Below, piece by piece: positions 24,178-45,692 of a stretch of 64,000 bases of DNA. The notes under the pieces were generated by a model that saw only the letters and a program-made list of their open reading frames with translations, did no database searches and had not been told where the DNA came from. The position numbers and the translations under genes are program-made. This stretch comes from Parachlorella kessleri (Eukaryota > Chlorophyta > Trebouxiophyceae > Chlorellales > Chlorellaceae). Location of the stretch: positions 1 to 64,000 of the forward strand of contig BBXU01000983.1 in the NCBI GenBank assembly GCA_001598975.1, in the 5' to 3' direction. Numbering within the stretch: the first letter of the stretch is position 1; every line of letters starts with the position of its first letter.

Positions 24178-25233
24178 TTACGTGGGCTCCGCACGCACAG
24201 CAAAGTTGGTGTAATAATTCCATCCAGCCGCCATCCATAGTGCAGAGATGCCTGCATAGTAACCAAATTGCCGCAGTATGCACTCAGAGCAATCTCAAAG
24301 GGCTGCCGCCATGCCAACACAGCATGCCTGCCCCCATGATTATCTCACTTGTGTGCACATTGTAGGCCCCAAGAACCAATCTCTACCCCGCCCTCCCCTC
24401 CCTCCTTAGTGCGCACGCTCCTTCCAAGCCAAGAAAGCGGGTGCTTAGCTATGCTTGTCCCTCAAACTCCTTTGAGATTATGCCTGGTCACAGGATATGT
24501 GCTCAGTAGTCCGCGTTTCGCTTGGCACAGGGTAGCTCACCTGCCACCACCATCGGTTGGAGGGCAAACTGCCATGCCATGGTCTTGAAGACCACCAGCT
24601 CCAGCGAAAAATGCAGCAGCGCCAGCACAAACGACAGCAGCGTGGCCCCATATATGGACGGCACGCAGGGATTACGCGCGCATATAAGGCAGAGCAGGCA
24701 CGTTGTGAGCGTCCACGCCGCAAAAGTTCGTCCTGTTAGGTCCGTTACTGCAGGCAGTGGCCATTGAAGGTTGCTCTAACCACCCTTGAAACCCTGACTT
24801 GAGGGCTGAGGCCAGCCAGGTCGATTATGTCACAGCAAATTGCGGCCTCTGACTAAAGTCCGGTCCACCTTCGTTGTAACTTTTGTGAAGGCTCAGGAAA
24901 GGGAACGGCACAAGGACCCCCCTCTCTAGCGCCAGAGGGTGACCGCAGCACGCCGTCGAGCGCAAGCCTTGCAGCACCTCTTGATGCGGTGCGCCTCGTA
25001 GCAAACCTACCTAGCTCAGGCTTCTTTGTGTATAGGTTTGTTTGAAACCGGTGGGGTGCTGCATAGCCCAGGCCAACTGCAGCAGCACACAGCAACCTGT
25101 GAGAGACTGGTAGCCCTGGCAGTCCAAGCATGCCCCGACAGCACGCCTGCATGGTACTCAAGTGCCCACCTGAGAACAAGCGAAGGAGAGCTACAAATAC
25201 TAGCCAGCGCCGCAGCGCCTGCAAAGAGTCCAT
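24178..25233 (-). CDS. ERG28: ERG28-like sterol biosynthesis scaffold
   Basis: Small ER membrane protein that tethers the sterol C-4 demethylation enzymes. Four exons (25233-25170, 25058-25011, 24747-24541, 24251-24178) give 130 residues with four hydrophobic segments, as in the family. The start reads MDSLQALRRWLVFVALLRLF. The signature TDLTGRTFAAWTLTTCLLCL matches the conserved GRTF-WTL block of plant and animal ERG28, followed by LLSFVLALLHFSLELVVFKT and an aromatic last helix (LWMAAGWNYY). All phases agree. The protein is short and well conserved, so the call is firm. It diverges from the glutathione peroxidase gene across about 350 bases. Confidence 0.9.
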
Positions 25234-25580
25234 TTCACGTGGAGTTTAGCAAGAGTCAGGAGTGCTGCAAGTGATCAGAGCATCTAGACACCCTTCGTCC
25301 TACCGTGACTGACGGCATTATCTCTAGCCCGGCCAGCCGCAAGGGTGCTCTGACCCTGTGCGCAGCGGGCCGTCAGGCAGCTCTCAAATACCCCGGTGGT
25401 GGTTCGCACGAGTTAACGTTGCACAACCTCCCTCCTTCACAGGCCCACCTAGATCAAGCCAGGCTGAGAACCAGGGCGCAACACCTCTTTGAGCGCTCAT
25501 GCTCCCGCCACTGTCTTACAACCTCTTCTGTGCCTCATCCCCATGTCTTAGGCTCGTCGTTTCGCATCATCTGGGGGAGC
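25234..25580. promoter_or_regulatory. Divergent promoter, ERG28 / GPX
   Basis: The 347 bases between the two opposing start codons must hold both promoters and leaders. No TATA box is obvious. The frame upstream of 25581 is open but lacks an earlier in-frame ATG. Confidence 0.45.
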
Positions 25581-26995
25581 ATGCAGCTCACCTGCTTCAA
25601 GGTGAAGGCCTTGCAAGCCCCAGAACGGAGAAGATATACATGTCATGGGCGAGTTAGGGTGGTAGCTTCGGCTGCAAGCCATGAGCACCGCGATGAATCC
25701 TGTTCTAGCAGGCGTGCCCTACTTGTTGGCACGGCGGCTTTGACGCTATTGCCTGGCACCTCCAGAATTGCGCGAGCTAGCTCAGATTCCATTTACAGCC
25801 TGTCGGCCCTACAGTATGGCCAGGAGGTCAGCTTCGAGCAGTTTAGAGGCCAGGTAAGCCTCGAGTTAAGACAATATGCACCACAAGTGACGCAGTAGCC
25901 TCGGTGGTACCCCTGGTGGTTGTATGGCATCTTTGCGGCGAATCTTTGCTTGCACTAAGAACAGAAGTCCTGCCGGTGGTGCTCCCTTTGTTGCTGCGCA
26001 GGTCACGGTGGTACTTAATGTGGCCAGTGAATGACCTCTTCAAAACGTGAACTATCCTGGTCTGAGGGCGTTGTACGACAAGTACAAAGACCAGGGGTTC
26101 ACCCTTGTAGCCTTCCCCTGCAATCAGTTTGGGGGTGAGGTCCCCACCCTGACCTTCAGCAGGGCGCTGGATAACACATACTGCTCAGCTGTGCCTGGTC
26201 ACATTTGGCATCTTTACGGCACTGGTGGGATCACTGCTATGTCGCCCTCTGCTAGCTGAAGCCAGCCCGCGTCATCCCGCTTTCTTCCTTGTTTGTATAC
26301 AGGCCAAGCTCCAGGCACCTCAGAGGAGGAGCGGCAGTGGGCTTTCCGCAAGTTTGGCTTTGAGTTCCCCGTCATGGTAAACCACCGCACGCATGTGTGG
26401 TGCACTGCTTTGATCTTGCCCAGTGAGTCCTAGTGTGGAGGATATTCTTGATAGAAAGCCCTGTGAACAGACAGCACTTAATATAGTTGTTTGCTTGCAT
26501 TTCCAGGACAAAATAGAGGTTAACGGTCCCAACACGCACCCCATCTACAAGGTGCAGTTGATGGAGAGGCAGCACTGACACTGGGCTGTTTTGGAGCTGC
26601 TCTCCAGCCCGCAGCTCACTAACCAGGCCTGCTTGGGGTCACCATCTCCTTCCTTTCAGGCTGTCTGACCCACATGTCCAACATTGCGTGTTGTGTCACT
26701 GAGGCTGCCTGTGCTTTTTGTTCATCGCCCCGTTCAGGTGCTGAAGCAGCAGCAGCCAGTCTCACAGCCGTCCTCCTCGCAGCCGCCTCCAGGGGAGCCC
26801 GGCCGTATCGAGTGGAACTACACCAAGTTCCTGGTGTCGCGCGAGGGAGTCGCGCTGCGGCGGTACAAGCCTGGGTTTGATCCACTCGAGTTTGAGGGAG
26901 ATGTGCTGCTGGCGCTGGCTGGCAAGGCGCCCCTCCCTGTGGAGTGCTTTGCACACCCTGGTAGGAAGGTATGCAAGGTGGAACATTACCTTTAG
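25581..26995 (+). CDS. GPX: Glutathione peroxidase, likely selenoprotein
   Basis: Thiol/seleno-peroxidase that reduces hydroperoxides. Five exons (25581-25853, 26002-26134, 26303-26376, 26507-26551, 26738-26995) give 260 residues if the TGA at 26032-26034 is read as selenocysteine 102. The context is [19 protein letters not shown], where the family has NVAS-x-(C/U)-G-x-T-x-x-NY. The frame continues through [39 protein letters not shown] and [19 protein letters not shown]. The tetrad partners Gln (CNQFGG), Trp and Asn (EWNYTKF) are all present. The N-terminus looks like a bipartite plastid leader: a Ser/Arg-rich part, then [20 protein letters not shown] ending in ARA, a twin-arginine lumen-targeting pattern. 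A SECIS-like hairpin follows at 27239-27283. If TGA were a stop the protein would be an inactive 101-residue leader fragment, which the intact downstream exons argue against. Confidence 0.88.
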
Positions 26996-27238
26996 TAGCC
27001 TTCACTGAGGCCACCGTGGTTGCTATAGTTCAAGGTTCAAACACCTTAGTATGATTACTGGCAGTTGTGGGCCTTTTTGTTCGAAAGGGAAACGAGAGGA
27101 CAAACACTGGTCGCTCGTTGCTCTTCACCATTTGACCTCCACAGCATGCCTTTAAGTTCCTGCTTGGTGGGGGTTGGACAAGGTGTTAGTGCGCGGACAG
27201 GTTCAGCTGCCACATGTGCTGGCAAGGTGGCCTCGACT

Positions 27239-27283
27239 ATGACGGCTGCATGGGAAATCCCTGCTGGGATGCCTGCTGCCTGA
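27239..27283 (+). promoter_or_regulatory. Candidate type II SECIS element
   Basis: A SECIS directs selenocysteine insertion at in-frame UGA in eukaryotes. Here 5' AUGA (27239-27242) and 3' UGA (27281-27283) can form the non-canonical G-A quartet. A helix follows (27244-27246 and 27248-27253 against 27280-27278 and 27276-27272, with a U-U mismatch). Unpaired AAA sits at 27255-27257, twelve bases after the quartet, the expected spacing. The apical loop then forms an extra four-base-pair mini-stem, UCCC (27258-27261) with GGGA (27266-27269), closing a UGCU loop; that is the type II mark. It lies 244 bases after the GPX stop and before the TGTAA signal. Helix I below the quartet is weak by eye. 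Confidence 0.75.
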
Positions 27284-27431
27284 CCTGCTGGGCTGCAAAG
27301 GGAGCTGCCACGCCCTCGGTGGCTACTCTTGCAACCATTCGAGGCCTCTTTGTCCAAGCGTATGTGGTTGCTGTTTTCATGCCCAGTCGTGCTGTTCGTA
27401 CGCCTTCCGTTGGCTTGGGGGCGGCCAGAAC

Positions 27432-27436
27432 TGTAA
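27432..27436 (+). terminator. TGTAA poly(A) signal, GPX
   Basis: Green-algal poly(A) motif placed after the SECIS-like hairpin and about 40 bases before the next start codon. It would keep the hairpin inside the GPX mRNA. Confidence 0.5.
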
Positions 27437-27476
27437 TCCTCACCCCGTCCAAGGGTGCTGGCGCCCCTTTGGGCGC

Positions 27477-30400
27477 ATGGAAGCTTCAGGCGCTACGTCC
27501 GCACAGCAGCGGCCGGCAATACACCTCGAGCTTGCATCTGATCACAAAGGAAGGACGTTTGAGATCTCCAATGGTAGCACCAACGTGAGTAGACGACGGG
27601 ATGATGGGGACAGCTCAGGAGGCATCCTCTGCTCTTTCGTATGGCAAACTGGCTAAGCTTCTGTGCGATGTTGAGGGAGGAGTGTGCAGCGAAGAAAATG
27701 GCGATATGCGCGCACAGCGTGTTCCCAAGGGCCGCCAGCCTTCGGTGCGCCATCTTGCACCATCATGTCAGCTGGGCCCAGGAGCGCTGCAGTGCGAGCC
27801 TCGTCTCCAAGCAGAACGCCCTCTGTAAAAGTTCCATGGGCAGCTTTGACGCAGGCTTGGCCTTCTAGTGGAGCAAGGCGAGGTGGTGCTGTCCACAGCC
27901 AACCTGTTGCACAGCGGACCCTTTGCCTTCAGACTGAACCCCGCGAGCAGCACCATAGCAGGGACGGCAGCGCTACAAAATAAAGTATTGCTTGCCACAG
28001 AGGAAAGGAGGCAAGTGCAGTAGCCAGGTTGCGGCGACTTATAGGCAGCAGGCAGGAACCTCTTGCATCTCTGGTACTCTAGGTGGTTCAGTGCCATTAT
28101 CTAGTGTAAAGGCTGCCATGCGAACACAGCCTGTGATCCGGTCTGGTAGCCTGCCTCTAACCATGCTGCCATCCTGCCGCTCACTGAGGCACACGCAGGC
28201 CGGCAGGGGCGGCATGGCATGATGTGGACGACTCGTTTGCCCTGGCGGCTCCCATAAATGCCTCTGGCAGTGCCACAGCCCATGCAGCAGCGAGGCGGAC
28301 CCCTCAGCCTCCCGAAGGTGCCGCAGCTCCAGCTAGGGATACCCCTGCCGCTGGCGCCGCTACTCTTGGTGCACTGTACCTGGGGTTCAGCCAGCAGGAG
28401 CACATAGATGCCGCACACACGAGGGGCTTGCTGCTGGTGGCCCTGCAGCTGGCACCGCTGCTGTCAGCGAGCAGCAGCAAGTGCCTGTACTGGGCTGACG
28501 TCGTGCTTGGGAATCTGCACCCGGAAGAGAGAGGGCCAGCAACCCCTCGGCGGGCAGCCTTCACAAGCTGGTCAACAGATGCAGATTTGAGGCAGGGTAG
28601 TGCAACAACCTCAGGGGAGCTGGAGCTGGAACCCTCCAGCGATGAGGAGAGTTGGGAGGAAACAGACGAGGAGGAAGGAGAGCAGCAGGGCCAGCTAGCA
28701 GCCACCCCAGAGTGGGGAGCTGGGGCGTGCGGTGACGACAGGCAAGGCGGCCCGCCAGATGACCCTTCTGGCGGCGCAGCCGCCCTGCTCGCACTGGGCG
28801 GGGTTGCTGCCGAGCCCGCGGCGGCAGCAGGCAAGTTGGCAGGCTCAGGCTTGCCGCCAGAGCCTCACTCACGTGCTGCCGAGAGGGTGGAAGCGCTGCC
28901 TGGGCCAAGCATCAGCAGCCCACGGCAGGCGCTGCCGCAGCACCCGGCGGTAGGGCGGTTGAAGAGTTGGGAGGAAGGCGACGCCAGCGCCAGCAGCAGC
29001 AGCACCAGCAGCAGCTGGGGTGGGCGGCCGGAGGCAGGCCCTTCTGTGGCAGGCCTGAAGAAGGCTAGCAAGGGGAGCGAGGAAGGGGAGCTTGGTGAAC
29101 CCAGCAGCCCTGACAGCGATGGAAAGCCAGGTAGGAGGGGTGGAGTTGCGCGGCTTGCATAGGCGCAGAAGCACAGCTGTCAGTGCCTGGTAAGGCATGT
29201 TATGACTTAGCTTACCATCCTGGCTTAGTACAGTCAGTGCATCCCATTGCGCAACTCTACTGACTTCCAGATGGGAGGCGACCCCTAACTCGAGCACCAA
29301 TGTGCCCTTCAAGTCGACTACTAGAATACCATCCAGCCCAAGATGTTAGCTCTTCCCCAGGACACGCTCAACGCCTTTGGCCCTGCAGGGAAGTGTGTGT
29401 TGCTGCCGGCGGTCGCGCAGCCGGCCACCCTGCGGCAGGCGGGCATGAGCCGCCTCACGCTGCGCTTTGCTGACCCGCTCACAGAGAGCGCCTTCCGCGC
29501 CTGGCACTACGCCTGCCTGGCCAAGGTTAGGGCCAGCAAGTGCCTGCGGACGCTGTGGAAACCACACTGTATTGAAGCCCTTGCCCAGCAGGGGGGCCTC
29601 TAAAGTCTTGCGCTGCCAGGCATGCCATGCATGCCCTTCTCCCATAGCACCTGGCTCCACACCCTGGCATTGTTACCTGTGCATATTTGCAAAATGGTAT
29701 GTGTATGGATCGGGAGTGAGGCGCATTTGGAGCAGTGCTTAGCCGCCCCCCATGTGGTCCGTGTAGTTGCCATAGCGGCACATGACAGACAGCCCTGTAC
29801 GATATTGTGCGGTGTGGCCAACGGTGCTAAACCATGTATTTCCCGGTCGCTGCAGCTGGATGCCATGGCCCTGGCTTTCATGATGCTCATCCACCTGGTG
29901 CTGTGTGCCGCCAACCCTGACTGGTAAGCACATGGTCACCAGCAGAAACGCCTGCACAGCAGGCTTTGCAATGACTTTGGCAGTGAACAGCAAAGGGTCA
30001 GGGCAGTAGGCTCATTGTTGGTCCAACGTGGGTGTTCCTGTCAAGGACAGCCCCTGCAGCGTTGTATGTCCACTGCCATGGCAGCTGCATGGCATGGGCC
30101 TGGCCTGCGCTGCAGCGGTGTGTGCGTGGAGCCACCTGTCTGTCACGAGGCCAGTCGTGCCGGTCCTCGTCCGCTGTTGCAGCAGGAGCCGCGTCATGCA
30201 CCCCCACTGGCCGCTGGGCCTGGTCCCCGCGCTCCCTCTGGCTCTCCTCCTCCTTAGCCCGCAAAGGTAGGCAAGGAGCCTCCCCAGCAAGCTTGCTCAT
30301 AAAGTGCCTACCATGCCTGAGCTGAGTGGTCTTTCGGCCATCAGAGCTTGAGCAGTGCAAGCGCTTGTGGACTAGGGTCCCCATCCATCATCCCACGTGC

Positions 30401-42848: not shown

Positions 42849-45692
<2,844 letters not shown>

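Follow-up and report, generated by a model that had tools for sequence, protein, structure and literature searches.

The gene at positions 25581-26995 of the window (the whole 64,000-nucleotide stretch of Parachlorella kessleri DNA analysed here) raises the question of whether a stop codon inside its reading frame marks a defective gene or is read as selenocysteine (Sec). The gene lies on the forward strand, codes for a glutathione peroxidase (GPX) in five exons and contains one TGA inside the frame. The spliced frame comprises 783 nt and 260 residues, and its single internal TGA is codon 102 (26032-26034, forward strand). Exon 1 (25581-25853), which encodes the N-terminal targeting region and the start of the GPX fold (residues 1-91), was reconstructed from the frame and lies outside the coverage of P0001, a public protein described below. 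Exon 2 (26002-26134), with the catalytic strand-loop NVASEUPLQNVNY, is supported by the frame, by P0001 and by structure alignments. Exon 3 (26303-26376), exon 4 (26507-26551) and exon 5 (26738-26995), the last of which contains Trp201-Asn202 and the stop codon, are supported by the frame and P0001. The introns are 148, 168, 130 and 186 nt long, and GT-AG borders were found in all four. No in-frame ATG other than the start codon at 25581 occurs between the GPX fold and the preceding stop at 25272.

An earlier note on this DNA had described a spliced GPX frame with a TGA at the catalytic Cys/Sec position, codon 102, and the alignments bear this out. In phmmer comparisons, residue 102 aligned with the NVAS-x-C cysteine of the solved GPX structures 2vup and 2p5q (Sec, U, was entered as C in phmmer and the alignment programs), and the coordinates 26029-26037 given for this site do read GAA TGA CCT. 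The active site of GPXs consists of four residues, namely Cys or Sec, Gln, Trp and Asn. The partner residues, which the note had called intact, are all in place as Gln133, Trp201 and Asn202. The frame is also open on both sides of the TGA over the length of a GPX, as had been claimed: the protein scored 107.6 bits against Pfam GSHPx (PF00255, cut-off 27), and its downstream part matches P0001. This protein of 154 residues, with the source label 'lgn', corresponds to the spliced window frame from residue 107 to the end with 153 of 154 residues identical; the sole mismatch is the initial M of P0001, opposite a GTG codon of the window. P0001 supports the three junctions 3' of the TGA and the stop at 26995; its span includes neither the start codon nor the junction of exons 1 and 2. 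Because P0001 is already spliced, it is most likely derived from cDNA, and because it begins just after the TGA, its source probably has an in-frame stop there too. The nearest named matches by score, among the matches listed, were from Chlorella ohadii and Micractinium conductrix, and a viral structure library returned at E ≤ 0.001 only the GPXs of two poxviruses and of phages.

Within 26002-26080, no acceptor AG is available by which exon 1 could bypass the TGA and stay in frame. The first suitable AG is at 26081-26082, so that removal of the TGA by splicing would cost residues 92-118. The TGA is beyond chance: it occupies the sole position where the family has Cys or Sec, the frame is kept on both sides, and there is no splice bypass.

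The window protein has 1472 homologues, and the 120 listed ones were analysed. A C-terminal motif, C..[HK]PG..C, was found in 67 of these 120. At the column of residue 102, these 67 tail-bearing rows had no residue in 57 cases, Trp in two, other residues in eight and Cys in none. The 53 tail-less rows had Cys in 43 cases (41 of them in the N-x-AS-x-C context), no residue in nine and Val in one (P0058). The NVAS-x-Cys arrangement was thus present in 0 of the 67 tail-bearing relatives versus 41 of the 53 others. The eight rows with unrelated letters at this column (P0002, P0003, P0021, P0024, P0038, P0039, P0075 and P0081) are read as models spliced or framed around a TGA. P0045 and P0069, which both fall in the Sec clade described below, have a Cys at column 102 in models that lack NVAS, and this Cys is, by its sequence context, a stray one. 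Trp was found in P0004 (NVASEWPLQNVNY) and P0011 (NIASEWPLNNVNY), where it is best read as a TGA translated under a code in which TGA means Trp; the P0004 model apparently also continues past its terminal TGA. We infer the TGA at the catalytic codon of the relatives from these protein models.

It was also observed that the 67 tail-bearing relatives (among P0001-P0081, and P0107) are cut or spliced at the catalytic codon in the databases, with the two Trp exceptions, because the codon is read as a stop. The truncation or mangling of such genes by annotation, which had been anticipated, is seen in these entries.

A quick tree of 72 rows, calculated without bootstrap from 69 of the 120 listed homologues together with the window GPX and both of its paralogues, placed the window GPX inside a 48-row clade (SH-aLRT 98) together with Chlamydomonas GPX2. 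The earlier note had proposed an alignment with algal GPX selenoproteins; in this tree, the window gene groups with GPX2. The clade consists of 44 rows with the tail motif plus P0045, P0050, P0058 and P0069, and the 24 rows outside it include both Cys paralogues of the same genome, of which the one on C824 has a long branch and an unsure place. Branching within the clade is poorly resolved. A GPX fold was predicted for the relative P0004.

A hairpin at 27231-27291 on the forward strand, starting 235 nt 3' of the GPX stop, resembles a SECIS element. In it, ATGA (27239-27242) is followed after 12 nt by AAA, then by a small apical hairpin and finally by TGA (27281-27283), with the three core elements in register, and the predicted fold of the region, with an open core between an outer and an inner helix, is SECIS-like. 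When 25200-29000 was searched with the complete set of Rfam models, two matches reached E ≤ 10, the better being SECIS_1 at this site (20.0 bits, E 2.3). The score lies below the RF00031 gathering score of 35, and the hairpin is classed as SECIS-like, not as a member of RF00031; at gathering thresholds, the Rfam scan of the whole window returned no match. In the whole genome (50.86 Mb), SECIS_1 at E ≤ 10, with 133 of 446 first-look candidates scored, gave two matches, the GPX element (E 7.3) and one on C112 (25.4 bits, E 0.24). The score of the GPX element alone proves nothing genome-wide. When scaled by our own arithmetic to 1 kb on one strand behind the stop, the same match has an E of about 7e-5. 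Our own SECIS descriptor had a single match over the two strands of the window, at this very site, and matched in 4 of 60 first-order Markov resamplings (mean 0.07 per resampled window), a flattering background rate since the descriptor was composed after the match was known. The folding energy of the region is ordinary (z -1.33, with 20 of 200 shuffles equally stable), and a generic ATGA..AA..TGAT pattern was uninformative over the window, with 16 matches versus 15.8 expected. Green algae use TGTAA as a polyadenylation signal, and a TGTAA 3' of the hairpin at 27432-27436 (forward strand) is, by its position, a possible one.

The earlier note had proposed a search of the genome for the Sec machinery, and the outcome was divided: the elongation factor eEFSec was found, and tRNA-Sec was not found in limited searches. 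SepSecS was represented by seven PF05889 matches on C31 (best E 3.9e-15 in the genome search). For eEFSec, PF21208 gave two matches above cut-off on C54, with a TGA inside one of the two, and for an open reading frame at this locus the match to 5izk, a selenocysteine-specific elongation factor, had an E of 1e-19, compared with 0.0026 for an EF-Tu. A PSTK-like gene on C55 was matched by TIGR03575 with a best E of 3e-9, far below the whole-protein cut-off, and contains a TGA within the match. Other P-loop families score equal or better on its first open reading frame, and Pfam recognised a P-loop in one open reading frame of this locus and, weakly, KTI12.

No tRNA-Sec was found with RF01852 (default, E ≤ 10; 53 of 4787 first-look candidates scored) or with three patterns. 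Of the ten RF01852 matches at E ≤ 10, ARAGORN called seven as ordinary tRNAs (two Gly, two Ser, Asn, Pro and one without a determined anticodon) and found no tRNA in the three weakest, L028-L030, of which L028 has a TTCAAA loop and no recognisable T arm. None of the pattern matches L020, L021 (a tRNA-Leu) and L031-L034 is a tRNA-Sec. The patterns presuppose an unbroken TTCAAA loop and would miss the gene if an intron were present in the anticodon loop; passages of one study (PMC5330540) report such intron-containing tRNA-Sec genes for Daphnia. For selenophosphate synthetase, genome searches with TIGR00476 or E. coli SelD returned no candidate, which carries no weight in searches run without a positive control. 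The draft assembly, the limited search or a tRNA intron could account for these missing genes. Liang et al. 2019, in the text consulted, describe the full Sec machinery in all sequenced genomes but one of three core chlorophyte classes (PMC6627142).

Considering the in-frame TGA at the catalytic position, it is highly probable that the window contains a nuclear green-alga gene for a Sec-containing GPX of the Chlamydomonas GPX2 type. The selenoprotein reading put forward in the earlier note is supported by the SECIS-like element, the Sec-machinery genes, the lack of NVAS-x-Cys in the tail-bearing listed relatives and the position in the GPX2 clade. One stop in an otherwise open frame would also be expected if a Cys GPX had acquired a nonsense mutation or if the assembly contained a wrong base, and the window gene could be redundant given the two other GPX genes of the Cys type in this genome. 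However, the remaining frame is intact with its introns all GT-AG, the spliced public copy P0001 is identical downstream and likewise begins after the TGA, the tail-bearing relatives have a gap at the same residue, and a SECIS-like element lies downstream, so that we regard a pseudogene or an error as very improbable.

A protein lacking Sec would also result if the TGA were spliced out alternatively or read through with an ordinary amino acid. The database models P0003, P0006, P0018 and P0021 omit the TGA, and the TGAC at codon 102 is a leaky stop context. However, the in-frame acceptor at 26081-26082 would remove the catalytic loop together with the TGA, and plain readthrough would leave the SECIS-like element and the Sec factors unexplained; a Sec-less product is, in our estimate, extremely improbable. 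Given P0001, the relatives and the acceptor positions, an assembly error, a pseudogene and splicing around the TGA are all unlikely.

For the preferred reading as a Sec-containing GPX, the element and the machinery genes suggest that the ribosome would read UGA codon 102 as Sec, and we propose that it does so because the Sec factors are brought in by the 3' UTR hairpin. As expected from the family, the selenol would act with Gln133, Trp201 and Asn202 in the reduction of peroxides. Import of the protein into the chloroplast is probable, perhaps with onward transport to the thylakoid lumen via a twin-arginine signal. Since the plant-type resolving Cys is Ala in this protein, the oxidised Sec would be regenerated either by an outside thiol or by the conserved C-terminal C-x8-C pair.

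The closest known system is GPX2 of Chlamydomonas reinhardtii (Cre08.g358525, CHLRE_08g358525, P0021), which falls in the same 48-row clade and shares the C-terminal CVLHPGRKVC and an SRR stretch near the N-terminus. It differs in coming from another species, with 57% identity across 72% of the window protein, and its database model P0021 is without a Sec residue. That Sec GPXs occur in green algae such as Chlamydomonas, as the earlier note had stated, agrees with PMC9404770, which, in the parts consulted, lists GPX2 as a selenoprotein and gives two Sec GPXs, with Sec confirmed by mass spectrometry in one and the other based on EST and genome data. According to sections of two other papers, GPX is one of the four algal selenoproteins with the widest distribution (PMC7539508), and Chlamydomonas has two described Sec GPXs that are targeted to the chloroplast (PMC3095285). 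The novelty of the window gene is modest, given that its counterpart in Chlamydomonas is already a published selenoprotein.

Unlike the animal Sec enzyme GPX4, the algal protein is extended at its N-terminus, where it carries a twin-arginine stretch, and ends in the C-x8-C tail; for nearly all listed rows, the alignment to the model of P0004 does not reach past residue 191. Poplar GPX5 (2p5q), a plant Cys GPX, shares the GPX domain and aligned at E 1.5e-35, but it has Cys instead of Sec and a Cys in VCTRF, which we take to be the resolving Cys, where the window protein has Ala in WAFRK. The two paralogues in the same genome, detected with Pfam at C824:2472-3026 and in the C328:20368 region (L002-L004), likewise have a GPX domain above the Pfam cut-off, but they carry Cys (NVASHCGFT and NVASQCGFT) and fall outside the Sec clade, with the place of C824 unsure. 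The C824 paralogue apparently has a long glutamine-rich stretch ahead of its GPX domain.

The C-terminal C-x8-C motif is formed by Cys245 and Cys254 (26945-26974, forward strand) and was recognised from the sequence and the alignment of relatives. The plant resolving place is Ala in the window protein and in 67 of 67 tail-bearing listed rows, and the spacing of the tail cysteines is kept despite varied letters between them in P0045, P0050, P0053 and P0058. The conserved tail may replace the plant resolving Cys. A twin-arginine and a hydrophobic stretch at residues 44-67 (25710-25781, forward strand), noticed by eye, resemble a Tat-type signal, and a regular expression found SRR-type stretches in 7 (P0002, P0021, P0024, P0025, P0032, P0075 and P0081) of the 67 tail-bearing relatives, many of which are without an N-terminus. 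At the level of sequence, the twin-arginine stretch suggests an address in the thylakoid lumen. The clade might then represent an obligate-Sec peroxidase of the thylakoid lumen with its own relay, in which C-x8-C resolves the selenenic acid and no soluble glutathione is needed, a proposal that we consider unlikely. If it were true, the enzyme would be a lumenal selenoenzyme carried folded across the thylakoid membrane.

It is slightly more probable than not that C-x8-C is instead a structural disulfide or a metal site, and that the enzyme resides in the stroma, not in the lumen, with glutathione or thioredoxin as its reductant, as in other GPXs. In the P0004 model, the tail cysteines fall within ordered segments (pLDDT blocks 94 and 87), which fits a structural element. 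Chloroplast GPx has been described as stromal and the Chlamydomonas enzymes as chloroplast-targeted, in the portion of PMC3095285 consulted. However, this reading must also accommodate the Ala at the plant resolving place and the kept Cys spacing, neither of which decides between the two readings of the tail.

The other genomic SECIS_1 match accompanies a second candidate. A three-exon gene at C112:44911-45042, 45161-45277 and 45379-45516 (L014 723-1565, forward strand), in our own model built from sequence alone, has an in-frame TGA at C112:45227. The match at C112:45689-45753, 172 nt 3' of the stop, is the best SECIS_1 match reported in the genome, with its 25.4 bits below the gathering score. 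The protein scored 88 bits against DUF3253 (PF11625, cut-off 22.1), and NCBIfam gave no match for it. At the position of the TGA, each of the 120 listed homologues (of 358 in total) has a Cys, and those listed with organism names are bacterial. The stretch around the TGA reads ATC-U-PSEA, a Cys-Sec dyad. The model of the homologue P0131 (pLDDT 92.9) had one match at E ≤ 0.001, the Rhodococcus protein 2ns0 (E 5.5e-9), and its next matches, from E 0.04, include several that are winged-helix or DNA-binding by title. A literature text search found neither 'DUF3253' nor selenoprotein together with 'DUF2256', and 'DUF' is absent from the main text, as far as consulted, of a survey of 42 algal selenoprotein families. 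The DUF3253 gene is a candidate and, if the reading is right, would be a new selenoprotein family.

The window gene adds a genome-supported selenoprotein of the GPX2 type. It keeps Sec although the genome also contains two Cys paralogues. The N-terminus and the C-x8-C tail of the protein raise the testable question of how reduction of a selenoperoxidase would proceed in the thylakoid lumen or close to it.
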